The notes below the pieces were generated by a model that saw only the letters and a program-made list of their open reading frames with translations, was not told where the DNA came from and ran no database searches. A DNA stretch of 64,000 bases from assembly GCF_003014485.1 (NCBI RefSeq), contig NZ_PYGA01000021.1:62001-126000 (forward strand), given 5' to 3'. A program made the position numbers and the translations under genes. Positions 9,676-49,804 of this stretch are shown here, one piece after another (the first letter of the stretch is position 1; every line of letters starts with the position of its first letter). Source of the stretch: Murinocardiopsis flavida (lineage in GTDB: Bacteria; Actinomycetota; Actinomycetes; Streptosporangiales; Streptosporangiaceae).

Positions 9676-11695
9676 CGGGGTCGGGCATGATCGGGCGGAG
9701 GCGGCGCTGGATCTGGCGGGTGATGTCGCCCTGCTCGCCTGCCGCGTCGACCACCAGGTAGCGCTCAGGGGCGCGCTGGGCGAGCGCGCGGAAGCCCTGG
9801 TGGACCCGCTGGTGGAAGTCGGCGGGCTCGGCCTCCAGGCGGTCGGTGGGGTCGCCCACGCGGGCCATGCCGGCCTCGGGCGCGAGGTCGAGCAGGACCG
9901 TGAGGTCGGGGACGAGGTCGTCGGTGCCCCAGGAGTTGACGTACTCGATGTCGGCGGGGTCGAGTTCGCGCCCCGCCCCCTGGTAGGCCAGCGTCGAGTC
10001 GACGTAGCGGTCGGTGATGACGATGGCGCCCCGCTCCAATGCCGGGCGGATGACCGAGTGCACGTGCTCGGCGCGGTCGGCCGCGTAGAGCAGCGCCTCG
10101 GTGTGCGGGGAGATGCCGGTGTTGTCGCGGTCGAGCAGCAGCGCGCGCAGCCGCATGCCGAGCTTGGTCGCCCCCGGCTCGCGGGTCGTGACGACCTCGA
10201 ACCCCTCGTCGCGCAGCCACACCGTGAGCCGGTGCGCCTGGGTGGACTTTCCGGCGCCCTCGCCGCCCTCCAGCGCGATGAACGTGCCGGGGAGCCGCTC
10301 GGTCTCCGTGGTCTCGGGCTCCAGCGGGACGCCGCGCAGCGACGCCGACAGCTCCTTGAGGACCGGCACCTCGGCTTCCTTGCTCTCGCGCATCTGCCGG
10401 TAGGAGACGAACGCGACCACGCTCGCCAGCACGCCCGCGAGGATCAGCACCCCGGCCGCGCCGGAGAAGTCGTAGGCGAGGTCGGCCCGCTCCCAGTGGT
10501 AGTCGCCGATGGCGGCGGCGAGCAGCGGTGCGACGGCGACCGACGCCATCAGCACGACCTTGGACGCGGCGTGCAGGAAGGCGAACGTGCGGCCGCGGAG
10601 TTCGTCGGAGACCTCGTTGCCGAGCATGGTCAGCCCGATGACCCAGGCGATGCCGGCCCCGGCGCCCATGACCGTGGTCAGCAGCGCCGCCATGACCATG
10701 TTGGGGATGAGCCCGACCAGGATCAGCGCGATGCCCGACATCGCGAGGGCCAGGCCGAAGAGCCGGCGGCGGCTGAAGTCCTTCAGGATCCGCGGCCCGG
10801 CGAACATGCCGAGGGCCATGCCGGTGAACACGGCGCCGAACATCACACCGAACCCGGCGTTGCCGGCCCCGAGCGTGTCGACGAAGAGCCGCGCCACGCC
10901 GACCACGGCGCCGCCCGCGGCGAACGCGCCGAGCATGCCCAGCAGCAGCCCGCGCACCAGTGGGGTGCCGCCGACGTAGCGCCAGCCCTCCCAGATGGTC
11001 TTGAGGACGTTGGAGTCCTCCAGCGGGGCGCGGTCCTTGCGCGGAATCGGCAGCCGCCAGATCACGGCGGCCGCGATGAAGAACGTGACGCCGTTGATGT
11101 AGAGGGCGACGTCGGCCTCAGGGGTGCTGAGCGACGGGATGAGCCGCCCCAGCACCGAACTGAAGGACGCCAGGACCGCGAACAGCAGCGCCGCGACCGG
11201 GGCCGAGCCGTAGGTCGTGAAGAGGCTGAGCTGGTTGGCCTGCTCCAGCTTCTTCTTCGGCACCAGGTTCGGGACGGTGGCGTCCTTCGCCGGCGCCCAG
11301 AACATGGCGACGCACTCGGCCAGGAAGTTGGCGATGAGCAGCCACTCGATACGCCCCACGATGGGGATCGAGATGTACAGCAGGCCGCGCACGATGTCGC
11401 CGACGACCATGGTGAGGCGGCGGTCGACGCGGTCGGCGATCCAGCCGGCGAACGGGCTCAGCACGATCGACGGGAGCAGCTTCAGCACCACGACGCCGCT
11501 GACAGCGAAGTACTGCACGACGGTTCCGCTGTCCTCGGTGAGGATCGTCGCGAGGGACATCAGCGCGAGCAGGCTGAGCCAGTCCCCCAGGCTGGACAGC
11601 GACAGCGAGATCCAGAGCCGCCGGAACGGCTTGATCGCGAGGACATTGCGCGCCTCGCCGGGCGCACCGATTGGGGCAGATCTGCTCATACTCAT
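9623..11695 (-). CDS. tmk: MFS transporter domain fused to thymidylate kinase
   Basis: 690 residues in two parts. Residues 1 to about 430 form an MFS-like membrane domain with about 12 segments (GWIADRVDRR motif near residue 85). Residues from about 465 are a complete dTMP kinase: P-loop ALEGGEGAGKST, the TTREPG strand, the DRYVDSTLAYQG lid-adjacent motif and a C-terminal helix. The kinase phosphorylates dTMP to dTDP for DNA synthesis. The same fusion is common in streptomycetes and relatives; why the kinase is tethered to a membrane carrier is not known. The start is ATG 11695, with a second in-frame ATG two codons later. It lies downstream of topA in the same direction, and its last 17 codons are duplicated at 6.2 kb. 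Confidence 0.93.
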   Translation of the reverse strand: MSMSRSAPIGAPGEARNVLAIKPFRRLWISLSLSSLGDWLSLLALMSLATILTEDSGTVVQYFAVSGVVVLKLLPSIVLSPFAGWIADRVDRRLTMVVGDIVRGLLYISIPIVGRIEWLLIANFLAECVAMFWAPAKDATVPNLVPKKKLEQANQLSLFTTYGSAPVAALLFAVLASFSSVLGRLIPSLSTPEADVALYINGVTFFIAAAVIWRLPIPRKDRAPLEDSNVLKTIWEGWRYVGGTPLVRGLLLGMLGAFAAGGAVVGVARLFVDTLGAGNAGFGVMFGAVFTGMALGMFAGPRILKDFSRRRLFGLALAMSGIALILVGLIPNMVMAALLTTVMGAGAGIAWVIGLTMLGNEVSDELRGRTFAFLHAASKVVLMASVAVAPLLAAAIGDYHWERADLAYDFSGAAGVLILAGVLASVVAFVSYRQMRESKEAEVPVLKELSASLRGVPLEPETTETERLPGTFIALEGGEGAGKSTQAHRLTVWLRDEGFEVVTTREPGATKLGMRLRALLLDRDNTGISPHTEALLYAADRAEHVHSVIRPALERGAIVITDRYVDSTLAYQGAGRELDPADIEYVNSWGTDDLVPDLTVLLDLAPEAGMARVGDPTDRLEAEPADFHQRVHQGFRALAQRAPERYLVVDAAGEQGDITRQIQRRLRPIMPDPVPKDAEAPTGMMPIIKE

Positions 11696-36245: not shown

Positions 36246-36315
36246 CACCAGGGGAGGATCCCCGCCGGGATCGCCCCGCACCGCTGTAGTCGGCGGGGCC
36301 ACGTAAGAGGAAGCG

Positions 36316-36648
36316 CGGGCCGAGACCACCCCCACCACAGCAGACCTCGGCAAGGCTGCCTGGAGGCTGCGAAGCAGCTACGGCCGAAGCACACCCCGAC
36401 GCGTGGCAACCAGACCCCGCCCGAAGACCGAGGTCGAGGTGCAGGCCCCCGCCTCGGACAGCAGCATCGGGCCCAGGTCCCGCGAAGCCTGCACAGCAGC
36501 CGAGGTGACGGGCGGTTCGGCCAGCGGCCGACTCCAAGTGCGGCCAGGGCCTGGCGATCACGAATCACGACGCGTATCGGCCGTAGCTGCTTCGCAGCCT
36601 CCAGGCAGCCATGCCAAGCTCCGCGGTGGTGGGGGTGGTCTTGGCCCG
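36316..36648. repeat. Long inverted repeat around a 190 bp core
   Basis: 36316-36387 is the reverse complement of 36577-36648, with the inner 34 bases of each arm (36354-36387 and 36577-36610) matching perfectly and the outer halves with a few differences. The 189 bases between the arms hold no gene I recognise. The arms could be ends of a small non-autonomous element or could form a large cruciform. Confidence 0.88.
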
Positions 36649-36871
36649 CCACCTCCGTGCGGAATTGCCGAGGTCCGCGGCGGTGGGGGGTGGCCTCGGC
36701 CCGCACCCCCGCGCGGAACTGCCAAGCTCCGCGGCGGTGCGCGATGGACTCGGCCCACCACCCCCACGCGGAACTGCCAAGCTCCGCGGCGGTGCGCGAT
36801 GGACTCGGCCCACCACCCTCACGCGGAACTGCCACGGTCCGCGGCGATGCGGGGCCATCTCGGCGAACACC
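36616..36871. repeat. Tandem array, about 4.7 units of 54-55 bp
   Basis: Units start at 36616, 36670, 36724, 36779 and 36834 (partial). Each begins with a TCCGCGG box and ends GCGGAA(C/T)TGCC, so that neighbouring ends pair as CGCGGA...TCCGCG, a hairpin at each junction. Units 3 and 4 differ at one site. The array starts inside the right arm of the inverted repeat. There are no spacers of unique sequence, so this is not a CRISPR. Confidence 0.9.
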
Positions 36872-36946
36872 GACGGCTGGCGGTTCTGGCGGGCGCCACT
36901 GGAAGGCTCCTGGACTCACTCCGCGACAAGTAGGGCACACGGGCGA

Positions 36947-37110
36947 GGGCGCCACCAGGGTATGACTACGCCTCCGGCTGAGTGGACGCGCTGCTACGGG
37001 TCCGCTTGCCTTCGGAGTCCCTCCCAGCGTTGGCGGCTGATGTCGCGCGCAGCCCTCCGGCCCGGCAGCGCGGGCTCACGGGCATGGCCCCTCCGCGTTC
37101 CGCATGCCGT
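36947..37110. repeat. IS5-type left-end remnant, copy 2
   Basis: Imperfect repeat of 25819-25980. Here no transposase body follows; the sequence runs directly into the end of the biosynthetic operon, whose last gene stops at its edge. It marks the junction between the repeat-rich stretch and the gene cluster. Confidence 0.72.
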
Positions 37111-38198
37111 CAGTATTCGCGGCCGGCGTCCTGCCGGCGCAGCCGCGATCTGAGCTGGAGCATCTGCCGGCACACCTCGGGCAGGTCGGTGACGTGGAGC
37201 CGGTCGGGGATCTCCGGGGCTTCGGCGACCGGGTGCACGTCGTCGGTCGAGAGGCTGACCGCGCCGCCCTCGGAGATCTGAACGCCTTCGAGGGCGGTCC
37301 ACCGCTGGTTGAGGGCGATGGCCTCTTCGAGCGTGACGGTATCGGGCAGGCAGAGTTCGATATCGCCGTCCCGGACTCGGACCGGATATCCGCCGGGGAG
37401 GCCCGCGAAGCCCGGAAGGCTGGTCAGGAACTCGCGGCCGCTGAGCAGTGCGTCGAGGACGAGCGCGGTGACATGGCCGTTGATGATGTTCAACTCCGCA
37501 CGCGATGCAGAGCGCTGGGGGGCGAGGAGTCCGGTGACGCCGGGAACGGACGCGCCGTCGAGCCAGACCTTCGCCTCGTGGTCCGCGCGGTGCGGGGTGT
37601 GCAGATGCCAGTGGTGTCCCAGGACGCGCAGCCCGGCCTGGTCCCGGAGCCCGAGCCGTGCCTGGAGGGTGGCCGCGAGCAGCGCCACGTTGCCGATGCC
37701 GCATAGCACCGGCAGGCCCGTTGCCTTCAGGACGGGGTTGACCGCGTCCGGAAAGCACGCGTTGAGGAACTGTGTCGCGGCATCGGCAGTGGCGATGACT
37801 CGGGACAGCTCGACAGCGATCGCGGCCTGCAACGGGAGGGTGAACCCGAAGCCCCGCCGGCGGACCAGATCGGTCCAGGCCGACGGCGTGTGCGTGCCTT
37901 CCCATGGGGATTGGTGGGAGGCGCAGTTGAGGACAATGGCGGGTGAGAGTTCGCGCAGGATCGGGCCGAAGGTGCCAGCCGAGTACCGCTCCACCGTGAC
38001 CGGCCGGAACCGCACACGGGATGTGCTCAGCGCCGCGCGTACATTTGCAACGTAGCAGACCTCTGCGGCATTGGAGCCGGTCCTCGACACCACCGTCACC
38101 GTGCAGGCGGCGGTACCGATGGTGGCGAGCGCATAGCAGACGGCTCTGGTGAGCGATCCGCCGCCGACGATGAGCACATCACGTTCTGACACTGTCAC
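37110..38198 (-). CDS. Rossmann-fold oxidoreductase of unknown substrate
   Basis: 362 residues. The N-terminal dinucleotide site DVLIVGGGSLTRAVCYAL is followed by VTVVSRTG, and then LSPAIVLNCASHQSPWEG, VNPVLKATGLPVLCGIGN, a pattern reminiscent of saccharopine or opine dehydrogenases. I do not recognise a characterised homologue. It is the last gene of the seven-gene operon with the N-hydroxylase, cupin and MetRS-like genes and may reduce or oxidise a late intermediate. The final codons border the IS remnant, but the C-terminus looks natural. Confidence 0.65.
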   Translation of the reverse strand: MTVSERDVLIVGGGSLTRAVCYALATIGTAACTVTVVSRTGSNAAEVCYVANVRAALSTSRVRFRPVTVERYSAGTFGPILRELSPAIVLNCASHQSPWEGTHTPSAWTDLVRRRGFGFTLPLQAAIAVELSRVIATADAATQFLNACFPDAVNPVLKATGLPVLCGIGNVALLAATLQARLGLRDQAGLRVLGHHWHLHTPHRADHEAKVWLDGASVPGVTGLLAPQRSASRAELNIINGHVTALVLDALLSGREFLTSLPGFAGLPGGYPVRVRDGDIELCLPDTVTLEEAIALNQRWTALEGVQISEGGAVSLSTDDVHPVAEAPEIPDRLHVTDLPEVCRQMLQLRSRLRRQDAGREY

Positions 38199-38331
38199 CC
38201 CTGTCGCACTCGGTCCGCCGATGGTGGGTCGCCGCTTTTCGCGCGCTCCGCGAACACGTTCCGGCGGTTCGCCTCCGGCGGCTCCGGCGGGTTCGTGGAG
38301 CGACCGCCCGAGGAAGCGGCGGTCGTCGGAG

Positions 38332-38745
38332 TCACCGGTGCGACTCGTCTCCGCGCATGGTGTCCGGCTGGACCGCCGCCGCGGCGTCGTGCCCGATCGA
38401 CACGGCCCTGTTCTCGCTGTCGACGAAGACGACGGTGGGCTCGTGGGTTTTGGCCTCGTCCGCGGTCACCGAGGCATAGGCCATGATGATCACGATGTCC
38501 CCGGGCAGGGCCAGCCGGGCGGTGGGACCGTTGATGCCGATGATGCCGGAGCCGCGCGGGCCCGGCATCACGTACGTCGTCCAGCGTTCACCGTTGTTGA
38601 GGACGACGACGTCGACCTTCTCGTGCTGAAGGAGGTCCGCCGACTCCATCAGGTCCAGGTCGATGGTGATGGATCCGACGTAGTTCAGGTCCGCCTGCGT
38701 CACGGTCGCGCGGTGGATCTTCGACTTCATGAGTTCGCGCTGCAC
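38332..38745 (-). CDS. panD: Aspartate 1-decarboxylase (PanD-like)
   Basis: 137 residues from GTG 38745, which has GGAGAG upstream. KSKIHRATVTQADLNYVGS carries Lys9 and the Gly24-Ser25 self-cleavage site that generates the pyruvoyl group; INGPTARLALPGDIVIIMAY contains the conserved Asn and Thr and the C-terminal barrel strands. PanD makes beta-alanine from aspartate, usually for coenzyme A. Its place inside a biosynthetic operon, away from panB/panC, suggests it supplies beta-alanine to the product or decarboxylates an aspartate-derived intermediate. Whether the genome has a second panD cannot be seen here. Confidence 0.9.
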   Translation of the reverse strand: MQRELMKSKIHRATVTQADLNYVGSITIDLDLMESADLLQHEKVDVVVLNNGERWTTYVMPGPRGSGIIGINGPTARLALPGDIVIIMAYASVTADEAKTHEPTVVFVDSENRAVSIGHDAAAAVQPDTMRGDESHR

Positions 38746-38791
38746 GGTTCTCTCCTCTGGGTGGTAGTCGTTCGACTCCTCGCGGCAGGGG

Positions 38792-40195
38792 TCAGATCCT
38801 GCCGTGCTCCTGGGTGCCAGGGACCGCGCGCAGCATGTCGGCGAGGCAGCCCACCTCGACCGTCTGGGCGCGACTCACCGCGTGCTCCGAGTGGTGCGGA
38901 TACATCCCGGAGCCGTGCACGACGACCTCGTTGAACTGGTCGATCAGTGCACGGTCGGCCGCATTGGTCATGCCGGTGAGCACCATGACGAGCGACCACT
39001 CGGCCAGCGTCCGCGGATCGGCCGGCAGTTCGCACCCGCTGAGGGCGAGCATCTGGCGAGCCAGGCTGTAGCGGGTGAGGCATTCGTACAGTGACACCAC
39101 GATGCCGGTGCCGCCGTGTGCGGCGATCAGTCCGGTCATCTCGGGTGAGGTCACCGGCGTCTTGGTGTAGAAGGTGGGTTCGAGGTCCTCCCCCAACGAC
39201 CAGGTGGCGTACGGGAAGTGCGGAGACGCCTGCTGACGCAGCAGACCGGTCTCCGGGTCCGGCTGGTAGTCGATGTCCATCTCGAAGCCCGCGCCGCCGC
39301 TCAGGTGGTGGGCCACCATGTCGCTCGTCGCCAGGTGCTGGACGAGGAGGAACCCGGGCTGGGCGATCGGCAGGCCGAGGCGCGCGAGGACGCCGAGCCC
39401 GTGCTGATATCCCAGCAGCCCGTATGCGCTGGACACGGCATGGGCGTGCAACCGCCGCCGGTGCGCCGGGTCGGCGCCGCCGAACTCGTACTCGAAGAAC
39501 GCCCGGCAGGCGTCGGCGACCTTGTAGTTGGCGATGTCGAGCGTGTACCAGACGCGGCACGTGCGGGGCCCCCCGAACTGTGCGGCGCGGACGAACTCCT
39601 GGCCCAACTCCTTGACCGCGGCAGGCTGCGGTCCGTCGAGGACCAGGATCGGGTTCAGGCGGCGCAGTTCCTCCGACTCGGTCAACAGGTTCCTGCGGAA
39701 CTTGTACGTCGTGCGGGCCGGCGTGAACGTCGCTATGCGCAGTTCGTCCGGGGCGGCGAGCCCGAGGTCGATCGCGCGTGCCACGGCGTCGCGCAGAGCC
39801 ACGGCCTTGTTCCCCGAAGACGGGCAGAAGATGAGGATCGATTCGCCGGTGCGGCGGATGTGGTGGACGGCGCGGGCCACCATCAGCAGGGAAGCGGTGG
39901 TCTTGGTGGTGCGGACTTCGGGATTCTTCATCAGATCCAGCAGCACCACGCGTTTCCCGCCGTAGTCGTCGAGGTGTTCCCACGAGGCGCCTGCCGGACT
40001 GAAGTACTGCTCCCAGTCGTCGGTGAGGTCCGGGTACTCGAACGGCGGGCAGAAGCCGTTCCCGGTCCGCTTCTTCTCCAGTTCGGCCGATGCGAGCTGA
40101 ATCCCCTGGTAGTACCGCGTGATCAGGCTCTCCGACGAGGTCGTCCTGATGGCCTTGTCGAACACGCTCGGCGCGTGGGGGGCGGACTGCGTCAT
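38792..40195 (-). CDS. Threonine-synthase-like PLP protein
   Basis: 467 residues. RTTKTTASLLMVARAVHHI fits the PLP-lysine region, and FCPSSGNKAVALRDAV the phosphate-proximal SSGNxxxA motif of fold-type II PLP enzymes such as threonine synthase. The rest diverges from that family, with no clear tail motif, so chemistry could be beta- or gamma-replacement or the protein could be non-canonical. It lies between the MetRS-like gene and panD in the operon, after a 200-base gap (40196-40398) that holds no gene. It may bind an activated Ser/Thr/homoserine-type substrate, which is inference only. Confidence 0.6.
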   Translation of the reverse strand: MTQSAPHAPSVFDKAIRTTSSESLITRYYQGIQLASAELEKKRTGNGFCPPFEYPDLTDDWEQYFSPAGASWEHLDDYGGKRVVLLDLMKNPEVRTTKTTASLLMVARAVHHIRRTGESILIFCPSSGNKAVALRDAVARAIDLGLAAPDELRIATFTPARTTYKFRRNLLTESEELRRLNPILVLDGPQPAAVKELGQEFVRAAQFGGPRTCRVWYTLDIANYKVADACRAFFEYEFGGADPAHRRRLHAHAVSSAYGLLGYQHGLGVLARLGLPIAQPGFLLVQHLATSDMVAHHLSGGAGFEMDIDYQPDPETGLLRQQASPHFPYATWSLGEDLEPTFYTKTPVTSPEMTGLIAAHGGTGIVVSLYECLTRYSLARQMLALSGCELPADPRTLAEWSLVMVLTGMTNAADRALIDQFNEVVVHGSGMYPHHSEHAVSRAQTVEVGCLADMLRAVPGTQEHGRI

Positions 40196-40398
40196 CTCGA
40201 CCTGCCTTTCGGGTGGTTCGTTGAAGGGGGCGACTCGGCCTGAGCCCGGGTACGGGGTGTGCGGCGGTGATCGTGGAGGGGATCCGGTCGTGATGGCGCC
40301 CCTCGAAGAACCCGTGCCGCCGCAGCCGCGTAGAACGGTCCGCTCGCCGACCCGGACGGAGGCGGGGGGCGGTTACCTGGGGCGGACATCCCACTCGG

Positions 40399-41997
40399 TC
40401 ACGCAGACCGCCGCTTCCCGAAGACGGGTTCTGCCGGAACCGGCAGTCGGGTGCCTGGTACGGGCGGGCGGAGCGCGTCGACGTGTACGGGCCCGAAATG
40501 GGGGAGACCCAGCAGTGCGGCGAGTCGTTCCGCGCCTCGGGGCAGCACGGGTGCCGCCCACGCCGTCAGCCCCGCCGCGACCGCCAGTTGGGCGACCAGT
40601 GCCTGCTCATAAGCGCTCCTGCCCTGGGGGCGGTCACGGTGGTGGGCCTGGACGTGTCCGAAGTCCTCAGCGCAGGCCACGATCTCGTCCAGGAGCGCGG
40701 TCGCGCGGCGCGGGTCGAAGCCGTTGATCGAATACGCCTCGGACAGCTCCGCCACGCATCGGCGCAAGCGCCCAGCCAGTTCCGACCAGGCCGGACCGGA
40801 GGGCGGCAGATCCGGCACAACGCCGCCGCAGTCGCTCTCCACCGCGGTCAGCAGCCGGTGCAGCCACCCGCTCCACCGGTGCCGCAAGTGGTCGGAAGTC
40901 CGTTCGAGTTCCGCGGCGGTGAAACTGGTCTGGCGCCCGGTCGGCCGGTCGGCCAGCACGTGGAAGCGGACGGTGTCCGCGCCGAACGCGTCCAGCGCCT
41001 CCAGCGCCCAGACCACGTGGCGTCGCGACGTGGAGAACTTGGCACCGTTGAGCAGGTAGAACTCGTTCGTGACGAGCTTGGAGGGCAGGTTGCCGGCAGG
41101 CGCGTAGGCCGAGAACAGCACGGGAATGAGCACGGCTTGGAAGAAGCTGTTGTCGATCCCGAAGAACTGCACGGTGTCGGCCGGCGGCGGCCCATGGCTC
41201 GCCGGGAGCTGGCGCAGGTAGCTGGGCGCCATCTCCACCCACGGCAGGATCCGCTGGTCGTCGAAGCCGGGCACTGCCGTCGGCACACCCCAGTCGACCG
41301 GATGGCTAACCGCGAGTTCGGGCAGGCCCTCGGCGGTGAGGTTCTCGCACAGCGCGCGCACCTGGGGGGTCATGTCGGCCTGCTCCCAGAATTCGGCCAG
41401 GCGCTGTTCGAAGGGCGCGAGCGGCAGGAACAGGCGCTCACAGGACCGCAGCTGTGCGGGACGCTCACAGATGGCGCACCGGGGGGCGGTCAGGTCCGCG
41501 TTGTCGTTGGGCATGCTACAGATCTCGCAGATGCTGCCGCCGGACTCGCTGCCGCAGTGCGGACAGCCTCCGCTCACGTAGGCGTCGTGCAGCCACCGCT
41601 CGCATTTTGCGCAGTACGGCAGTGGCCGGGTGCGGGGCACGATCACCCCCTGCTCGTACAGTCGGCCGAAGAACCTCTGGACGAACGACTCGTAGCCGGG
41701 GTCGCGTTGCGGAACGACGATCTCGTCGAAGTCGATAGCAGCTTCGGACCACGCCCGCACGATGAGGCCGCAGTACTCGTCGGCTGCTTCGATCGGCTTG
41801 ACCCCTTCCTTCAGCGCCCGCATGGCCACATGGCTCTCGGTGATGTCCAGGCCGGTCGTCAGCACCGACGGCACGTTCTCGGCGCGCAGGAAGCGGTGCA
41901 GCACGTCGGCTGCGATGTAGGGGCCGGCTAGGTGGCCGATATGCATCTCGCCGTTGGTGGCGGGCTGGGGGACGGTGATCCATACACGCGCGCTCAT
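40399..41997 (-). CDS. Methionyl-tRNA-synthetase-like enzyme of an N-N bond pathway
   Basis: 532 residues of class I synthetase. GEMHIGHLAG gives the HIGH motif near residue 18, four CxxC-type pairs form the MetRS zinc knuckles (CAKCERW, CPHCGS, CEIC, CAIC), and AKFSTSRRH stands in place of KMSKS. It is shorter than housekeeping MetRS and lacks a clear anticodon-binding fit. In known hydrazine pathways a MetRS-like domain fused to a cupin (Spb40 of the s56-p1 pathway) activates an amino acid and joins it to the hydroxylamine nitrogen of N6-hydroxylysine. Here the cupin is a separate gene overlapping by ATGA, so the pair probably forms one complex. Confidence 0.85.
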   Translation of the reverse strand: MSARVWITVPQPATNGEMHIGHLAGPYIAADVLHRFLRAENVPSVLTTGLDITESHVAMRALKEGVKPIEAADEYCGLIVRAWSEAAIDFDEIVVPQRDPGYESFVQRFFGRLYEQGVIVPRTRPLPYCAKCERWLHDAYVSGGCPHCGSESGGSICEICSMPNDNADLTAPRCAICERPAQLRSCERLFLPLAPFEQRLAEFWEQADMTPQVRALCENLTAEGLPELAVSHPVDWGVPTAVPGFDDQRILPWVEMAPSYLRQLPASHGPPPADTVQFFGIDNSFFQAVLIPVLFSAYAPAGNLPSKLVTNEFYLLNGAKFSTSRRHVVWALEALDAFGADTVRFHVLADRPTGRQTSFTAAELERTSDHLRHRWSGWLHRLLTAVESDCGGVVPDLPPSGPAWSELAGRLRRCVAELSEAYSINGFDPRRATALLDEIVACAEDFGHVQAHHRDRPQGRSAYEQALVAQLAVAAGLTAWAAPVLPRGAERLAALLGLPHFGPVHVDALRPPVPGTRLPVPAEPVFGKRRSA

Positions 41998-42359
41998 GAC
42001 GGCTCCTCGTCCGGAATCTCGTGCACGGGCCAGTAGAGGTCGAGGAAGGCGAGCCGCTCCGAGCCCGGGTTGCTGACGACGTGCCGGTGACGGGGCGGGA
42101 GCACCAGCATGTCCCCGGCGGAGAAGGGTTCGTCCTCGTGCCCGTCCATGTGGACGATTCCCGAGCCGGACAGGCCCAGGATGATCTCCTCCTGGGTGTG
42201 GTAGTCCACTCCCGAGCGGCCGCCGGGCTCGACCCAGAGCGCCATCGCGCCGAAGGGCGGTTCCGGGGCGTCGCCGGACCACGGGAGTATCCGCTGGCAG
42301 AACAGGCCGAATTCGGGTGTGGCGGAAGCAAGGTCCACGCGCAGTCTGGTGATCACCAT
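41994..42359 (-). CDS. Stand-alone cupin of the hydrazine-type pathway
   Basis: About 121 residues, one cupin barrel: VDYHTQEEIILGLSGSG gives motif 1 with His/Glu ligands, and LPPRHRHVVSNPGSE gives motif 2. In hydrazine synthases the cupin, a zinc-binding domain, rearranges the ester of hydroxylysine and the amino acid into the N-N linked product. ATG 42359 is only a base or two from AAGGAGG, so the next codon, GTG 42356, may be the true start. Its stop overlaps the MetRS-like start (ATGA), which implies coupled translation in fixed ratio. Confidence 0.82.
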   Translation of the reverse strand: MVITRLRVDLASATPEFGLFCQRILPWSGDAPEPPFGAMALWVEPGGRSGVDYHTQEEIILGLSGSGIVHMDGHEDEPFSAGDMLVLPPRHRHVVSNPGSERLAFLDLYWPVHEIPDEEPS

Positions 42360-42366
42360 TCCTCCT

Positions 42367-43617
42367 TCAGGGGCCGTCAGGCCCGCGGTCTGTTGTCGCG
42401 AACGACCTTCGATATGGGCCCCCCTCGGTTCTCGCGGGAGCGATGCGGTGTACGGCGGGGCCGTCGGTCTCGACGATCGTGGCTCCGTGCCGCCGCAACC
42501 GGCCGAGCAGGTCCCGCAGCAGGTGGCCGGTGAACACCTCGGCCGCGCGCAGTACGCCGTGGGGCAGCGCCGGGTTCTCGCGCAGCAGCACCCGGACCGA
42601 CTCGGCGAGGGCGCCGCCGGTGAGGAGGGCCATGCCCGAGACCGCCGAGCGGTCGCCGCCACGCGCGAGGACCAGGAGGGACCTGCGTTCGGGCTTCGGG
42701 CCGTGCCGCGCGACCCCCTCGGCCACGAGGACGGTCACGTCCCGGTCCCGGGCACGAGGGGTGATCCGGGGAGCGAGCACGGCGTCGAGCACGTCGCGCG
42801 GGACCACGTGGACGCCGCCCACGCGCACAGGGGACTCCTGGAGCATGCCGACGGCCGCGAGCAGCCGCACCTTCTCGGCGAACCCGGGCCAGCGCAGGGT
42901 CTTCTGCGTCATGTCCGACACGCCGGACAGCAGCGGTCCGTCGGCCGGCCACGTCTGCATCGCGTCATGGCTCGCCTCCAGGACGCCGACACCGGGTACC
43001 TCCACCAGCTCCGTTCCGGTGAAGCGTTCGACCTCGACGATCCGGCCCCGGCGGACGGCATGGGCCCGGCGCTGGTCGATCGTGAGCCGGGTGCCGAACC
43101 AGCTGCTGTGCCCCAACGGGGGGCGCGGTTGCTGTGGGACGCCGCCGCACAGGACGCTCAGTCCGGTGCCGTCGCCGAGGCGGGCGAGCAGTTCGGTGGC
43201 CAGGATCTCGGTCAGCCCCGGCTCCAGGCCCACGGGCAGCAGCGCCCGGCAGCCCCGGGCCGACTCGCCGAGCAACTGGCGGGGGTCGCCCGGCGGCTGC
43301 CCGATGCCGGTCACCGGCACACCCCGGCCGAGGCCATACGCGATGATCGGTTCCGCGTCCTTCCAGGTCAGCGCCGTTGCTAGCACGTTCGCGCGGCTTA
43401 CCGCCCGCCGCACCTGCTCCTGCTCCGCGGTGCCGTGCACCACCTCGACCGAGCCGCCCAGCTCGGCGTAGCGCGTCCTCGCGTGTGCGGCCCGGTCCGG
43501 ATCGCGATCGGCCAGCAGCAGGCGCAGGCGGCCGTCGCGCACGTCCTCGGTGAGGTTGTCGGCGGCGGCGATACCCATGGGACCGCAGCCCACGAGCACA
43601 CATTGCGGCGCGCCCAC
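42367..43617 (-). CDS. Saccharopine-dehydrogenase-like protein
   Basis: 416 residues from GTG 43617, one base after the N-hydroxylase stop. CVLVGCGPMGIAAADNL is a Rossmann dinucleotide site, followed by LLLADRDPDRA; the middle holds VGLEPGLTEILA, typical of saccharopine dehydrogenase-type folds. An N-N adduct of lysine with an amino acid resembles saccharopine in shape, and oxidative cleavage would release the hydrazino acid and aminoadipate semialdehyde. I propose that step for this enzyme; in the s56-p1 pathway the step is done by an FAD oxidase instead. Confidence 0.72.
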   Translation of the reverse strand: MGAPQCVLVGCGPMGIAAADNLTEDVRDGRLRLLLADRDPDRAAHARTRYAELGGSVEVVHGTAEQEQVRRAVSRANVLATALTWKDAEPIIAYGLGRGVPVTGIGQPPGDPRQLLGESARGCRALLPVGLEPGLTEILATELLARLGDGTGLSVLCGGVPQQPRPPLGHSSWFGTRLTIDQRRAHAVRRGRIVEVERFTGTELVEVPGVGVLEASHDAMQTWPADGPLLSGVSDMTQKTLRWPGFAEKVRLLAAVGMLQESPVRVGGVHVVPRDVLDAVLAPRITPRARDRDVTVLVAEGVARHGPKPERRSLLVLARGGDRSAVSGMALLTGGALAESVRVLLRENPALPHGVLRAAEVFTGHLLRDLLGRLRRHGATIVETDGPAVHRIAPARTEGGPYRRSFATTDRGPDGP

Positions 43618-43618
43618 G

Positions 43619-45160
43619 TCAGCCCCGCCGCCCTTCCGCGGGCACCGTCACGTCCAGGTAGGCGCCGTCCACCGCGGTGGTCTCGTTCGCGGTGTGCAGG
43701 CCCGGCCATTCACAGGTCGACGTCCGTCCTCCGGTTCGAAAATGAGCCGTCCCGACCAGGGAGTTGAGGATATGCGCGGCCCGCCAGGACGCCAGGCTCA
43801 GGTTGGGATCGGCGATTCCGTGCGAGTGGCGTCCCGCGTTGAGGAAGAAGATCCGGTTGCGGTCGGGGCCTGCCCAGGGCACCGAGTAGTCGTCCCGCAG
43901 CGGGAGACCCAGCGGGCTGGGGTCGGGAAGCCGGTCCGCCAGCGGAGCGAGGAAGTCGGGCAGCGCGAACTCGTAGCCCGTGGCGAGTACGACAGTGTCG
44001 ACGATGGACCCGCCCCGGGTCCCGGAGTCCTGATGCAGCAGCCCCAGGTGCCAGCCGGTTCCCTGCGGGCTCATGTCGCGCAGGGCGTTCCCCGGCAGCA
44101 ACCGGTAGCGGATGGGGTCGGGGTCGGCGAAGTCGTTCTCGTACAACCGGCGATATATGTGCTGAAGCAGAGCGGTCGAGATCCCGTCGCTGGCCAATTG
44201 CTGCCGGCTCAGGAGGTCATGGCGCCGCTCCGGGGCCAGTTGGTGAAAGTAACGGACATAGTCCGGATGGAAGAATTCGTTGGTGAATGCGGAGTCGTCC
44301 ATGCACGCGAATGTGTTCCGTCTGGTGATCCACGTGATGGAGGCCGGCCGCCGCGCGGGCGGCCGATCCAGCAGATGCGAGAATATCTCCGCGCCGCTCT
44401 GCCCCCCGCCGACTACTGCGACATGCTGGCCGACCATGCGTTCACGCGCCGCGAGAAAGTCGGAAGAATGCAGGACCCGGGGTCCGACGTGCGATTTCGC
44501 GCAAGCGGGGATCGACGGGACCAGTCCCGCTCCGACGGATAGGTTCCGTGCGGTGTACACCCCTTGTTCGGTGTGCACGTGAAAGGAATCCGAGAGGAAC
44601 TGCACGTGCGTCACGCCACGGCTGAATTCGGCGTTGGCCAACTGCCCGGCCGCCCATGCGTAGTACCGGGCGAACTCCCAGCGCGGCACCGGGACCTGCG
44701 GCGTGCTGGCGAAACGGTGGATGCGTCCGGTGTGCACAAGGAAGTTGAGGAAGCTGAAGCGATTGGTGGGCTCCACCAAGGACACGAGGTCCTTGAGGAA
44801 TGACACTTGCAGGTCCGACTCGGGGAAGAGGACGCGCGGGTGCCATCTGTTGTCGGCCCGCTGCTCCAGGAAATGGGTGCGCATTTGCGGAACAGAGGTC
44901 GCCAGGCAGGCGGTGCTGAGGTTGAACGGGCCGAGTCCGATGCCCAGCAGATCGAATTCCCGACTCCTCGCCGGATCCCCGCCGTCCGTGTCCCGCTTGC
45001 GCGGCCGTGGCGCCTCGGCGCGCATGTTCTCGCCCGTTTGCCCGTTGACCGACTCGAATTGCGCCGTCCGGTCGATAGGGCCCGAGAAACCGTCGGGAAT
45101 CCCTGGCGGCAGCGGACCATTGGTCGGTCCGCCGCCACCAGGCGCTGCCTTCTCGTTCAT
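43619..45160 (-). CDS. Lysine/ornithine N-monooxygenase
   Basis: 513 residues. FAD site GIGLGPFNLS (residues 73-82), substrate motif FPESDLQVSFLKDLVSLVEP, NADPH site VAVVGGGQSGAE (about 250), and the C-terminal VLATGYEFALPDFL. This is the SidA/IucD/PvdA family, which hydroxylates the side-chain amine of lysine or ornithine with FAD and NADPH. The first 68 residues are a Pro/Gly-rich extension not usual in the family; ATG at residue 46 is an alternative, but ATG 45160 has a good GGAGGG site. It is the first gene of the operon. With a cupin and MetRS downstream, N6-hydroxylysine for N-N bond formation is likelier than siderophore synthesis. Confidence 0.92.
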   Translation of the reverse strand: MNEKAAPGGGGPTNGPLPPGIPDGFSGPIDRTAQFESVNGQTGENMRAEAPRPRKRDTDGGDPARSREFDLLGIGLGPFNLSTACLATSVPQMRTHFLEQRADNRWHPRVLFPESDLQVSFLKDLVSLVEPTNRFSFLNFLVHTGRIHRFASTPQVPVPRWEFARYYAWAAGQLANAEFSRGVTHVQFLSDSFHVHTEQGVYTARNLSVGAGLVPSIPACAKSHVGPRVLHSSDFLAARERMVGQHVAVVGGGQSGAEIFSHLLDRPPARRPASITWITRRNTFACMDDSAFTNEFFHPDYVRYFHQLAPERRHDLLSRQQLASDGISTALLQHIYRRLYENDFADPDPIRYRLLPGNALRDMSPQGTGWHLGLLHQDSGTRGGSIVDTVVLATGYEFALPDFLAPLADRLPDPSPLGLPLRDDYSVPWAGPDRNRIFFLNAGRHSHGIADPNLSLASWRAAHILNSLVGTAHFRTGGRTSTCEWPGLHTANETTAVDGAYLDVTVPAEGRRG

Positions 45161-45205
45161 GAACCCTCCGTCTCGCCGGTGACGACCGCGCGCACATGAA
45201 AGAAA

Positions 45206-45505
45206 CAGGTGTGCGGCGAAGGTCGCGGTGCCGGAAAGGGGTGGTTGATCTCGACGTCAGGCGTAGAAGGGGTCGGCAATGGACGCGAGGAAACTTCTTC
45301 CCCATGCGCTAAAGCACGATATGGGTCACATCGGAGAAATGCAAGGTGTGCGGCGAAGCCCGAGGGATCGAAAAGGGTGGCCTATTTGAACGTCAGGCGC
45401 AGAAGGGGCCAGCAATAGACACCAGGACACTCCGTCCCCATGCGTCACTGCACCATGTGTGCCGAAATGTGGGCGACGTCGGATAAATGCAAGGTGTGCG
45501 GCCGG
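45206..45505. repeat. Imperfect tandem repeat in the divergent promoter region
   Basis: The block starting AGGTGTGCGGCGAA at 45206 is followed by a diverged second copy from 45343 and the start of a third at 45491 (periods of about 137 and 148 bases). Shared landmarks are ACGTCAGGCG, AGAAGGGG and CCCCATGCG...AAATGCAAGGTGTGCGG. It fills the 369-base space between the N-hydroxylase and ATP-grasp genes and may carry duplicated operators for both. Confidence 0.7.
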
Positions 45506-45529
45506 GGGCCCAGGGGTACCTGTCCCACC

Positions 45530-46783
45530 ATGACCAGTCGCTCGGTAATCTTCGCCGGAACCCGATTCCTCCCTGCCGAGGTGATCCCCGCGGCATTCGG
45601 AGCATTGGAAGCCGGCTACAAGGTGGCACTCCTGTCATCGGCCCCACCTCTGTTCTCCTCGGCTGCCCTGGACGACATCGAGATCGTCGATATGAGCGAC
45701 CGCGCTCAAGCGATGGAGGCCGCACTGCGGCTGGCCGACCGGACGAACGCCCAGGGTGTCATTACCTGGTCGGAGCTTTACGTGGAACTCGCAGCGGCCA
45801 TCGCCCAGAAATTCGGCTGGCCCGGACCGAGCCCGGAAGCGGCGCACCGCGCCAGGAACAAGCACTCGATGCGCCAGGCCCTCAAGGACCGGCCCGACCT
45901 GATTCCCGACTTCCGCCTCGTCCGCAGCCTGGAAGACCTGCGAACGGCGTCCCGGGAAATCGGTGCGCCCGCAGTACTCAAACCCGCGGGCGCCGCCGGA
46001 AGCAAGGCCATCCTGACCGTGGATCACGGCTGCGACCTGTCCGAGCTGTACGCCACGGCCACCCGGCTGACGGCACTGGAACGGTGCGACCCCTACTTCG
46101 GCGAGTATCCCGGTGAATTCGTGTACGAGGAGCGCCTCGGCGGCACCGAGCACTCGGTCCACGGATTCGTCTACCAAGGCAGGATGTCCATCGCCGGTAT
46201 CACCGACAAGTGGGTGACACCCGATGTGTTCTCCGAGTACCAGGCGGTCCACCCCTCGCGCCTCGGCGACGCCGAGCAGAGGGCGGTCCGTGCGCTCACC
46301 GACGCGGTAGTGACGCGCATCGGGCTGGACAACTGCGCGTTCCACCTGGACTGCCGCGTCTTGGACGACGGCACCGCCCGCATGCTCGAAATCGGTGCCC
46401 GCCCCGGTGGCGGATACATCACATCGCACCTGATTCCCGCCAGCACCGGCATCCCCTTCCACGCGAACGCGGTGCGTGTGGCTACGGGTGAGGCGCCGCA
46501 CATGACCCCGACGCGGTCCCTCTACGCAGGCGGCCGCTACATCCTCGCCACCGAACCCGGGGTGTTCCACGGCTTCGAGGGGTTGAACGACGTACTCGGC
46601 CTGGCCGGAATCGAGCACTTCACGATGGAGAAGGAGATCGGCGCCGACGTGGTCCTGCCCCCGGAGGAGGCGCTGAGTTCCCTGATCGGCTCGGCCATCG
46701 TCCGGGCCCCTGACTACGACGAGGTCCTAGGGCTCATGCAGTCCGCCGAACGCCTCTCCCGGCCGCGCATCGCCAGTTGCTGA
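45530..46783 (+). CDS. ATP-grasp ligase
   Basis: 417 residues from ATG 45530. The N-terminal Rossmann-like domain (SVIFAGTRFLPAEVIPAAF) is followed by the ATP-grasp module: LKPAGAAGSKAIL loop (about residue 150), EFVYEERLGG, and the metal-binding end CRVLDDGTARMLEIGARPGGG. Such ligases couple a carboxylate to an amine through an acyl phosphate, often making amides or dipeptides. It is divergent from the N-hydroxylase operon and probably joins the hydrazine or beta-alanine unit to another acid. An upstream in-frame ATG at 45440 would add a 30-residue CxxC...CxxC segment, discussed among the findings. Confidence 0.85.
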   Translation: MTSRSVIFAGTRFLPAEVIPAAFGALEAGYKVALLSSAPPLFSSAALDDIEIVDMSDRAQAMEAALRLADRTNAQGVITWSELYVELAAAIAQKFGWPGPSPEAAHRARNKHSMRQALKDRPDLIPDFRLVRSLEDLRTASREIGAPAVLKPAGAAGSKAILTVDHGCDLSELYATATRLTALERCDPYFGEYPGEFVYEERLGGTEHSVHGFVYQGRMSIAGITDKWVTPDVFSEYQAVHPSRLGDAEQRAVRALTDAVVTRIGLDNCAFHLDCRVLDDGTARMLEIGARPGGGYITSHLIPASTGIPFHANAVRVATGEAPHMTPTRSLYAGGRYILATEPGVFHGFEGLNDVLGLAGIEHFTMEKEIGADVVLPPEEALSSLIGSAIVRAPDYDEVLGLMQSAERLSRPRIASC

Positions 46784-46960: not shown

Positions 46961-49630
46961 TCATGGCAGGATCTCGACGTAGCCGTCGGTTCCGTGTACG
47001 CGGATCCGCTGCCCGTCGCGGATCCGCCGGGTGGCCTGCTCCACCCCCACGACGGCCGGCAGGCCGTACTCCCTGGCGATCACCGCGCCGTGGGTCATCA
47101 GTCCGCCCACCTCCGTCACCAGGCCCGCGATTCCGACGAACAGCGGCGACCAACTGGGGTCCGTGAAGGCCGTGACCAGGATGTCGTCCGCGTCGAGGTC
47201 GGCGTCCGCCATGTCCAGGACGACGCGGGCCCGTCCCTCGACGGTCCCGGCGGACACGGCCAGGCCGACCAGGGCTCCGGCCGGCACGTCGGCGCGCCGG
47301 TACGCCCCGTTGACGGCCTCACCGTCCGAGGTGAGCACCCGGGGCGGTGTGAGCGCGCGGTACGACCGGAACGCGTCCTTGCGCTGCGGGATGAGCCGGT
47401 CGTCCACCCGGTTCGAGCGCACGGCGTCGTGGAGTTCCTGGAAGGTGAGGTAGAAGATGTCCTCCTGCTCCGCGAGCACGCCGGCCTGCACGAGGCGACC
47501 GGCCTCCGCCAGCAGGGCCCGCTTGTAGACGAAGTAGCGGCTGATGATGCCGTACTTCGGGTACTCCCGGTACCCGATGAAGGCTCTGACCTGGTCGATC
47601 ATCCGCTTGGCCGCGTCGGCCCTGCTGTCCCCGTCCGGCAGGGCACGCAAGCGTGACAGCACGTCCCGTTCCTTCTGCTGCGCCTTCTGCCGCCCCTGCT
47701 CGAAGCGCCGCTCGGCGGCGCCCGGCTCGAAGTTCTCGACGTTGTCGAGGATCACGGGCACGAGCGTGGCGGGGCGCTCGCGCCAGCGCGGCCTCGTGAT
47801 GTCGATCTCGCCGACGCAGCGCATGCCGTACCGGTCGAGGTAGGCCTCTATGGCGTCGCGCGCCTCGGTCCCGCCCGCGAGCTTCGCCAGCGCGTCGAGG
47901 AAGTCGTCGTCCTCGAAGCCCTGGAGGCCCTGGACCCCCTGGACGCCCCGGACGCCCCGGACGCCCCGGACGCCCTGGAGGAACGCCACCACCTCCGGCC
48001 GCGGGCGGATCACGTCCGCGACGTCGAGCAGCGCCAGTCCCATCTCCGACGTGATGTTGTCGGGGGCGGACAGCGTGAGCGTGTCGGCCGCGTTCTTCTC
48101 GCCCAGCCACTCCTGCAACTTGTCGTTGAGCCACCACGTGGCCTCCATCCCCGCCATGATCGCCTGGAGGCTCAGCGGGTCACCGAGGACGCGCTTGTGC
48201 TCCTCGAATGCCTCCAGCAGGAAGTCGAACAGCGCCGGCCCGCTCAACGTCTGGATGTCGCGCTCCAAGGCGGCGATGGACGCCCGGCTGCGCTCGATCA
48301 GCTCGGCGACGATGGCCGGATCGGTCTTGATGGCCGGATCGGTCTCGATCGGGGACGGCGCGCCACCGGCCGGGGGCCCGCCGGGGTCCGCGTCCGGGTG
48401 TGACGGGACGAAGTCGTCGCGGTCGAGGACGGTCTCCAGCGCGTCCCTGACCAGGGGATCGCCTTTCCCCATGGCGTCCAGCAGGCCGGCGCGGCTCGCG
48501 GGCGCGGCCAGGCGGCTGGTGACGTCGACGAACAGCCTCCCGGCGGCCTCGTGCATCGGCACCATGGCCGTCAGCCGCCACATGGACAGCCCCAGTGGCT
48601 TCATGGGGTCGGTCATCATCTGCTGATGCCCCACGGAGACGTAGACGTGGTTCTCCTGGTCATCGGCCTCAGGGACGGGGAACAGCGTCGTGATCGGCCG
48701 GCTCTGCACGATGTGGAAGCCGTCATCGGCCAGGCACCATTCGATGTCCTGCGGGCGGCCGAAGTGCGCTTCGATCCGCCGGCCGAGCCCCACGAGACGC
48801 ACGGCCTGCACGTCCGTCAGCGCCGGCTGCTCCTGCTGCCGCGCGCCGATCGCCACGTCCTGTGTACCGCCCGCCGGCAGGGCGTGAACGGCGCGCTGCT
48901 TGGCGGCGATCGCCTTGGCGACGACCTCGCCGTCTCGCACCGTGAACACGTCCGGGTTCACCAGGCCGGAGACCAGGGCCTCGCCGAGACCGAAGCCGGC
49001 GTCCACGGTGGCGACCTTCCGGTTTCCCGTGACGGGGTCGGCCGTGAACAGGATCCCGGCCGCGTGCGGGAAGACCATCCGCTGCACGACCACGGCCATG
49101 TGGACCGTGCGGTGGTCGATGCCGTTGCGCCGGCGGTAGGTCACGGCCCGCTCGGTGAACAGCGAGGCCCAGCACCGGCTGATGTGCCGGAGGATCGCCG
49201 CATGCCCCGCGATGTTCAAATACGTGTCCTGCTGGCCGGCGAAGGAGGCCGTCGGCAGGTCCTCCGCCGTCGCGCTGGACCGGACGGCGTAGGCGGCGTG
49301 CTCGCCGGACCGGGCGAGTGCGCGGGCGATCGCCGCTGCGAGCTCATCCGGGACGGCGGTCCCCTCGATGGTCCTGCGGACCTGTGCGCTGAGCGTGCGG
49401 ATCGCGTCCCTGTCGTCCGGGTCCGTGCGCGAAAGCCGATCGAGCGGATCGCCGACCGACGGTGCTTCCGCCATGATCCGCCGGAAGGCGTCCGTCGTCA
49501 CGCAGAAGCCGGCCGGCACGCGGATGCCGTCGATCCGCGACAACCCGCCCAGGTGCGCGCCCTTGCCGCCGACGACCGCGGCCTGAAACTCGTCTGCCTC
49601 CTGGAGATCCACCACGTACTGCTCGATCAT
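46961..49630 (-). CDS. rph: Rifampin phosphotransferase
   Basis: 889 residues, near the usual 860-870. The N-terminal part is a PEP-synthase-like ATP-grasp domain (GGKGAHLGGLSRI, AVRSSATAEDLPTASFAGQQ), the middle the rifampin-binding region, and the C-terminus the swivelling phosphohistidine domain with GGLMTHGAVIAREYG (His about 847). It phosphorylates the C21 hydroxyl of rifamycins using ATP and gives resistance. A 9-base tandem repeat (about 47925-47987) encodes a GVRGVRGV-type linker. ATG 49630 has AGGAGGT upstream. The RAE palindrome 139 bases upstream supports the assignment over a plain PEP synthase. Confidence 0.88.
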   Translation of the reverse strand: MIEQYVVDLQEADEFQAAVVGGKGAHLGGLSRIDGIRVPAGFCVTTDAFRRIMAEAPSVGDPLDRLSRTDPDDRDAIRTLSAQVRRTIEGTAVPDELAAAIARALARSGEHAAYAVRSSATAEDLPTASFAGQQDTYLNIAGHAAILRHISRCWASLFTERAVTYRRRNGIDHRTVHMAVVVQRMVFPHAAGILFTADPVTGNRKVATVDAGFGLGEALVSGLVNPDVFTVRDGEVVAKAIAAKQRAVHALPAGGTQDVAIGARQQEQPALTDVQAVRLVGLGRRIEAHFGRPQDIEWCLADDGFHIVQSRPITTLFPVPEADDQENHVYVSVGHQQMMTDPMKPLGLSMWRLTAMVPMHEAAGRLFVDVTSRLAAPASRAGLLDAMGKGDPLVRDALETVLDRDDFVPSHPDADPGGPPAGGAPSPIETDPAIKTDPAIVAELIERSRASIAALERDIQTLSGPALFDFLLEAFEEHKRVLGDPLSLQAIMAGMEATWWLNDKLQEWLGEKNAADTLTLSAPDNITSEMGLALLDVADVIRPRPEVVAFLQGVRGVRGVRGVQGVQGLQGFEDDDFLDALAKLAGGTEARDAIEAYLDRYGMRCVGEIDITRPRWRERPATLVPVILDNVENFEPGAAERRFEQGRQKAQQKERDVLSRLRALPDGDSRADAAKRMIDQVRAFIGYREYPKYGIISRYFVYKRALLAEAGRLVQAGVLAEQEDIFYLTFQELHDAVRSNRVDDRLIPQRKDAFRSYRALTPPRVLTSDGEAVNGAYRRADVPAGALVGLAVSAGTVEGRARVVLDMADADLDADDILVTAFTDPSWSPLFVGIAGLVTEVGGLMTHGAVIAREYGLPAVVGVEQATRRIRDGQRIRVHGTDGYVEILP

Positions 49631-49768
49631 TGCGCTACCTCCTGGGAAGCCGTGCTTCGTTGCACTGCGGCGGCCGATCGAATCACCGGCGTCTCCATCC
49701 CCGTCGACCCTCGTGCCCCCCTGCTTTCGCGCGATGGGGCCTCGACCGATGATTGTGCGCCTCCCCCA

Positions 49769-49788
49769 GGGGCTTGCCGCAAGGCCCC
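49769..49788 (-). promoter_or_regulatory. Rifamycin-associated element (RAE)
   Basis: GGGGCTTGCCGCAAGGCCCC is a near-perfect inverted repeat matching, from memory, the RAE that precedes rifamycin-inactivating genes in actinomycetes and makes them inducible by rifamycins. It lies 139 bases before the rph start. A CACAAT -10-like hexamer follows on the minus strand. Confidence 0.8.
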
Positions 49789-49804
49789 CCATGCGCTATA
49801 CCTT

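Follow-up and report, generated by a model that had tools for sequence, protein, structure and literature searches.

A 64,000-nucleotide stretch of Murinocardiopsis flavida DNA (hereafter the window) holds, at 37110-46783, eight genes that include an N-hydroxylase, a cupin and a protein resembling methionyl-tRNA synthetase (MetRS), and it raises the question of what these genes make together. On balance we think it probable, reading from sequence, that they form an orphan biosynthetic cluster around a two-protein hydrazine synthetase, a judgement that takes in the whole pathway proposed below. All eight genes were found where an earlier note on this DNA had placed them, and Pfam and NCBIfam profile scores agree with that note on the content and position of the cluster. 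Its features are as follows (PLP, pyridoxal phosphate; N-N, nitrogen-nitrogen):

43619..45160, minus strand: flavin-dependent N-hydroxylase, probably of L-lysine (or L-ornithine); PF13434, 333 bits; K123 and N294
42367..43617, minus strand: saccharopine-dehydrogenase-like protein; PF16653, 72 bits (cut-off 31); GCGPMG nucleotide-binding motif
41994..42359, minus strand: stand-alone cupin, the proposed N-N bond-forming half; PF07883, 50 bits; match to 5uqp
40399..41997, minus strand: stand-alone MetRS-like protein, the putative amino-acid-activating half; PF09334, 218 bits; best fold match 9l8v
38792..40195, minus strand: DUF6002 protein, a possible remote PLP enzyme of fold type II; PF19465, 634 bits
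38332..38745, minus strand: PanD, pyruvoyl aspartate 1-decarboxylase; PF02261; TIGR00223, 151.8 bits (cut-off 106)
37110..38198, minus strand: Rossmann (saccharopine-dehydrogenase-NADP-like) protein; PF03435, 19 bits, below the cut-off of 25
45440..46783, plus strand: ATP-grasp amino-acid ligase, divergent; PF13535, 51 bits; the true start may be 45530
45161..45530, no strand: divergent control region; direct repeats at intervals of 136-148 bases

Seven genes thus run leftward from 45160 to 37110, from the N-hydroxylase to the Rossmann protein, and the ATP-grasp ligase gene diverges from them on the plus strand. The first four, from hydroxylase to MetRS-like protein, are tightly packed: a single base separates the hydroxylase from the dehydrogenase-like gene, 7 bases lie ahead of the cupin (whose start codon is our choice), and the cupin and MetRS-like genes are, as previously described, two genes that overlap by ATGA (41997-41994). 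The gaps upstream of the last three are wider, with 203 bases before DUF6002, 46 before PanD and 133 before the Rossmann gene. A scan of the ten genes from 34.2 to 49.8 kb turned up no nonribosomal peptide synthetase (NRPS) or polyketide synthase, and the absence of such assembly lines claimed in the earlier note holds over this range. The host genome, 7.4 Mb in 75 contigs, is the sole genome of its genus in the collection searched.

The MetRS-like protein gives an indication of what the core may do. Its model (built from an alignment of 32 rows; predicted local distance difference test, pLDDT, 90.7) had as top match in a fold search the C-terminal domain of PyrN (9l8v; template-modelling score, TM, 0.88; 32% identity). 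This structure, which contains glutamyl-sulfamoyl-adenosine, outranks every true MetRS listed in the fold search and also came first in a sequence search. The protein falls under all cut-offs listed for the NCBI methionine-tRNA ligase models (e.g. 225 vs 587 bits), and its HIGH motif (H19, H22) and catalytic K320 (KFSTS-type) are kept and align with PyrN. In PyrN, the MetRS half forms an unstable ester from an amino acid and N6-hydroxylysine, which a zinc cupin rearranges to an N-N bond (PMC8664883; this and the other articles cited below were available as partial text).

The cupin of the window matches the crystal structure of RHS1 (5uqp, E 2e-5). Its metal-ligand positions D52, H54, E58 and H93 can be aligned, with one gap and as judged from the matched ranges, with D63, H65, E69 and H103 of RHS1, the zinc ligands given in the available text of PMC8664883. 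H54, E58 and H93 occur in 51/51 cupin rows and D52 in 27/51 (H in 23). With the D/H/E/H site present, including its essential glutamate, the metal site is predicted to be intact and to bind zinc. In view of the PyrN-like fold of the model, this cupin site and an amino-acid-type hydroxylase, the core resembles that of a hydrazine synthetase. The earlier note had proposed an N-N-forming cluster with a core like Spb38 and Spb40, a proposal with which fold, cupin motif and adjacent hydroxylase agree.

The pathway we propose has six steps, all inferred from relatives. The flavoprotein would first hydroxylate the side-chain nitrogen of L-lysine. The MetRS-like protein, with ATP, would then activate a second amino acid and attach it to the hydroxylamine through an ester bond, and the zinc cupin would rearrange this ester to an N-N bond; both of these steps have been shown for PyrN, and the rearrangement for RHS1 (PMC8664883, partial text), whereas in the window it is motifs and fold that point to them. 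Fourth, the dehydrogenase-like protein would use NAD(P) to cut the saccharopine-like product into a hydrazino acid and aminoadipate semialdehyde. PanD, the DUF6002 protein and the Rossmann protein would provide a building block outside the standard set (beta-alanine is the likely product of PanD), and the ATP-grasp ligase would finally join the pieces into a small peptide-like molecule. Such a product had also been put forward in the earlier note, and no assembly line was seen among the genes scanned.

The fourth step is given to the dehydrogenase-like enzyme since the lysine-derived N-N product corresponds to saccharopine plus an extra nitrogen, which makes this enzyme a natural candidate for cleavage. 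A similar cleavage role has been suggested for PyrL of the pyrazomycin pathway (PMC8664883, partial text). We compared the window with 98 MetRS-like loci, namely the best 80 of 328 genome matches and 18 loci from a family search, with three repeated genomes counted twice (L074=L104, L075=L145, L076=L157). A gene was scored as present at these loci when a tblastn match at 1e-4 covered 40% or more of the query (35% at the DUF6002 loci below). A hydroxylase is present at 51 of the 98; 44 of these 51 also have a cupin, and a DAO-type oxidase accompanies the hydroxylase at 45. No relative of the dehydrogenase-like protein was called at any of the 51, nor at any of the 98, by a procedure that misses remote relatives, PyrL-type dehydrogenases among them. 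Across 394 genomes of the class, with four candidates scored per genome where more existed, relatives at E <= 1e-20 were confined to the host's own genome. As for the DAO-type FAD oxidase, the ten genes of 34-50 kb give only a sub-threshold match, inside the hydroxylase (a distant genomic copy was not sought). The rare dehydrogenase-like protein occupies the place of the usual DAO-type oxidase. A scan of a collection of 84,980 species, which may omit records near the window, gave 328 MetRS-like places. Identity among the best 80 goes up to 58%, and in the stretches around these 80 tblastn detects no relative of the DUF6002, Rossmann or dehydrogenase-like proteins.

Which amino acid would be activated? 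The partners reported for hydrazine synthetases are glycine, alanine, serine, glutamate and tyrosine (PMC11705231, partial text). Compared with the 98 other MetRS-like rows, 63 of which keep D51, the window protein retains D51, W253, N283 and K320, yet its pocket residues Q11, A13, T14, E54, S259 and Q287 each occur in 0/63 of the D51-keeping rows (four of which are gapped at 11), and Q11, E54 and S259 in none of the 98. The positions D51, W253, S259 and Q287 correspond to V57, A262, R268 and R303 of PyrN, residues that we infer hold its glutamate; both PyrN arginines are missing, and the PyrN glutamate pocket is not present in the window protein. The pocket thus matches neither the D51-row pattern nor that of PyrN, which suggests that the amino-acid partner is new; we predict that it is not glutamate, nor a partner of the common-pocket type. 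A partner from the reported glycine, alanine, serine and tyrosine set is possible. More tentatively, and as a proposal that may well prove wrong, we consider a partner outside all five reported ones, possibly a non-protein amino acid that the PanD/DUF6002/Rossmann genes would produce locally by chemistry not yet described, together with cleavage of the NAD(P) type and not by a flavin oxidase.

Judged from their distribution, these three genes resemble a portable module, which in this genome would have been added to a hydrazine core. DUF6002 is infrequent, occurring in 19/297 genomes of the family and 12/394 of the class (host included in both). At 25 other DUF6002 loci (stretches of up to 20 kb, some shortened where the contig ends), a Rossmann homologue is present at 17 and PanD at 3; the Rossmann gene lies beside DUF6002 in 12/18 short loci and in 15/18 stretches up to 20 kb. 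The chance of such PanD placement at random is about 4e-5 to 3e-4, a rough figure that ignores relatedness. At the 98 MetRS-like loci, tblastn finds no DUF6002 or Rossmann relative, and PanD is beside only one, L159 of Microcystis. We therefore set aside PanD as a general hydrazine-synthetase partner; its stronger tie is to DUF6002.

The earlier note had called the DUF6002 protein a threonine-synthase-like PLP protein, a label that is unsupported as stated, Pfam assigning the protein to DUF6002. Profile comparison with 30 pooled PLP enzymes gave weak matches (probabilities of 22% and 28%, against 8% for a control in which the Rossmann profile was compared with the same pool), and the PLP-enzyme subgroups inspected gave 0.3-9.5%. 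Within this weak match, K98 (23/26 rows) falls on the PLP lysine and S127-x-N129 (26/26) on the SGN loop, and a remote fold-type-II PLP enzyme is weakly suggested. The single-sequence model of the protein has a pLDDT of 39.5. We found no mention of DUF6002 in the literature searched, which lacks most subscription journals, and a search for DUF6002 in plasmids and viral contigs was a line without yield.

PanD, whose score exceeds the TIGR00223 cut-off, has the G24-S25 self-cleavage pair as well as K9, H11, R54, T57, Y58 and N72. The genome has two PanD genes, the second at C6:209204 near siderophore-interacting and major facilitator superfamily genes. Elsewhere, the called PanD and DUF6002 genes overlap at L226, and at L071 a PanD paralogue without the G-S pair (10632-11033) lies near normal PanD, Rossmann and DUF6002 genes. 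Several DUF6002 loci have NRPS-like genes, as judged from adenylation patterns; adenylation-domain codes read by pattern at these loci had many gaps and were unusable. Genes for an O-methyltransferase, a RimK-like ATP-grasp protein, TauD and an AMP-ligase are found at L225 or L226. An amidinotransferase-like gene lies near DUF6002 at L225 (by PDB match to 1bwd and others) and another at L227 (by first-residue resemblance only), a hint that the DUF6002 module makes an amine.

Could PanD instead serve the core directly? Beta-alanine would then be the amino acid that the MetRS-like protein activates, and the N-N product would carry 3-hydrazinopropionate. At L159, PanD sits between the hydroxylase and the cupin-MetRS gene in a genome with a second PanD elsewhere, and P252 of the window pocket is shared, among the 98 other rows, by L159 only. 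We nevertheless regard this as unlikely. One residue common to two rows is thin, and its sharing would be convergent, since the window and L159 are far apart in the MetRS tree. PanD also lies near DUF6002 at L071, L225 and L226, where no hydroxylase, cupin or MetRS-like gene was found by tblastn, tying it to DUF6002 instead. The L159 strain is itself listed in Table 2 of PMC11705231 as a hydrazine-synthetase source, and the partners named in the available text are only the five given above.

As for the N-hydroxylase that would start the pathway, the solved structures it matches best, 6xbb, 7us3 and 5o8p, are of enzymes that act on diamines (7us3 according to its title). These three have S/A and L at the positions where the window enzyme has K123 and N294. 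In PvdA, the equivalent residues bind the amino-acid end of the substrate. K is found at position 123 in 43/52 rows and N at 294 in 44/52, and the diamine signature (S/A plus L, as in DesB and FbsI) was not found in the window hydroxylase. The substrate is thus probably an amino acid, and a diamine, as the best PDB matches might imply, is thought unlikely given K123 and N294. At seven other loci (L146, L148, L150, L152, L156, L168 and L170), the hydroxylase does have A and L; given these diamine-like residues, the N-hydroxylated partner at those hydrazine-type loci may be a diamine.

This hydroxylase family is often linked to siderophores, and the closest solved structures include siderophore enzymes. 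That the product is a siderophore or another hydroxylated-amine metabolite, with the cupin and MetRS-like proteins playing some other part, nonetheless seems quite improbable: no siderophore synthetase or receptor was found among 20 window genes scanned (no family could be assigned to two in the second set of ten), the cupin and MetRS-like motifs are intact in genes that overlap, and a better PF13434 match lies elsewhere in the host genome, at C6.

Several observations count against a hydrazine-synthetase cluster. The best solved relatives of the hydroxylase are of the diamine type, and its top NCBIfam model is histamine N-monooxygenase (257 bits, cut-off 700). The ten genes of 34-50 kb include no recognisable transporter or regulator, and the 203- and 133-base gaps suggest that the last three genes are perhaps not co-transcribed with the core. 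No other genome seen has the same whole gene set. In the MetRS tree (94 rows, 400 letters), the window protein forms a long single branch (0.58) next to a clade of 35 rows at whose loci tblastn finds neither hydroxylase nor cupin; the oddness of the pocket may partly be drift, given this position. Of the 98 rows compared, 35 lack D51 and W253. A13, T14 and Q287 occur in 33/98, 26/98 and 3/98 rows, in each case in rows without D51, and part of the pocket may therefore be an inheritance held in common with a clade whose function differs. A core that has drifted altogether, with a MetRS-like protein repurposed (as apparently in the sister clade) so that it activates an amino acid destined for some other transfer and no N-N bond forms, would fit the long branch, the hydroxylase- and cupin-less sister rows and these three residues, but is the least probable of the alternatives given that the MetRS-like protein keeps D51, W253, N283, K320 and its HIGH motif, that the cupin keeps its metal site and that a hydroxylase is adjacent. 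The 35-row clade itself (L112-L141, L151 and others) is mostly from Streptomyces and its MetRS-like protein is possibly a repurposed synthetase; at L116, asparagine-synthase-like and PIG-L genes lie close by.

The remaining gene of the proposed cluster, the divergent ATP-grasp ligase, matches PF18603 (LAL_C2) with 23 bits, below the cut-off of 29, and the BacD and DdaF models far under their cut-offs. Direct repeats in front of it (45207-45502) comprise 90 bases at 76% and 36 bases at 86% identity, with a spacing of 136-148, and the second copy runs into the Cys-rich start (CxxC ... CxxC) of the ATP-grasp frame. Convergent with this gene is a rifamycin-inactivating phosphotransferase (46961-49792; NF041857, 1615 bits, cut-off 999), which is not counted in the cluster. 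To the left of the cluster, at 36315-36873, a five-copy repeat (36582-36873, spacing 54-55 bases) overlaps a 109-base inverted repeat.

Few natural products contain N-N bonds, and cupin/MetRS enzymes are sought as biocatalysts. The pair described here, split by nature and odd in its pocket, lends itself to testing what determines the choice of the second amino acid. DUF6002 in turn gains a more defined chemical setting, with recurrent PanD and Rossmann genes, which makes its reaction easier to guess.

How does the window compare with known systems? Among the closest are the pyrazomycin genes (PyrN, PyrM and PyrL) and, from Rhodococcus jostii RHA1, the RHS1 cluster, which likewise combine an N-hydroxylase and a cupin with a MetRS-like protein and a putative saccharopine dehydrogenase (PMC8664883, partial text). 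In RHA1, the cupin and MetRS-like proteins are separate, as in the window. However, PyrN and the RHA1 enzyme use glutamate and the window pocket differs from that of PyrN, and no mention of DUF6002 or PanD was found in the available text of that article. The hydrazinoacetate pathways for s56-p1, triacsin and azaserine (Spb38-40, Tri26-28 and AzsL-N) have the hydroxylase and cupin/MetRS core in common with the window. They differ from it in their fused cupin-MetRS, where the window genes are split, in their glycine partner and in an FAD oxidase (Spb39, Tri27 and AzsM), which cleaves the intermediate to release hydrazinoacetate and has no counterpart among the window genes scanned (PMC11705231 and PMC10445470, both partial text). 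Albofungin has, like the window, separate MetRS-like and cupin genes and a lysine hydroxylase (Afn8/Afn9 and Afn18), but in a polyketide cluster with an asparagine-synthase-like hydrazine transferase, neither of which is among the window genes scanned (PMC11705231, partial text).

Two further comparisons come from our own searches. Microcystis aeruginosa S464 (L159) resembles the window in having a hydroxylase, PanD, cupin-MetRS and ATP-grasp close together. The hydroxylase, PanD and cupin-MetRS genes stand in that order (with PanD about 21 and 29 bases from its two neighbours by called starts), followed by a DAO-type oxidase, with TauD and ATP-grasp on the opposite strand. Unlike the window, it has a fused cupin-MetRS, the oxidase and TauD, is distant in the MetRS tree and gave no DUF6002, Rossmann or dehydrogenase-like match by tblastn. 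Among 291 genomes of its order, the only relative of its enzyme at E <= 1e-60 was itself, and as a single locus this parallel is a lead only. The actinobacterial DUF6002 loci (L071, L225, L226 and others) combine DUF6002 with PanD and/or Rossmann genes, as in the window, but beside NRPS-like, amidinotransferase, TauD, AMP-ligase or methyltransferase genes and with no cupin/MetRS pair by tblastn. As a side observation, L145 (4833-14451) carries lysine-2,3-aminomutase-like, methyltransferase and pre-ATP-grasp genes with a hydroxylase, cupin, MetRS-like and DAO gene. This set (also L154, partly L147) appeared negamycin-like, and would use cupin/MetRS rather than a heme enzyme; we dropped the label, as negamycin uses the KinJ homologue NegJ (PMC12154649, partial text).

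Separate cupin and MetRS genes, which the earlier note had stressed, are not new: they were already published for RHS1 (PMC8664883) and for Afn8/Afn9 and several more pairs (PMC11705231), as far as the available text of both goes, and separately called genes also occur at, for example, L092, L099, L103 and L104. The earlier note does not mention the odd MetRS pocket, the lack of the usual DAO-type oxidase at a locus with a dehydrogenase-like protein, or the joint recurrence of PanD, DUF6002 and Rossmann genes at other loci. Its view that the gene combination matches no described pathway stands within the literature searched, where we found no description of this gene set. Set beside these systems, the window has a split pair of a known kind, while its pocket, helper genes and orphan product are unfamiliar, and the compound may be an undescribed one.

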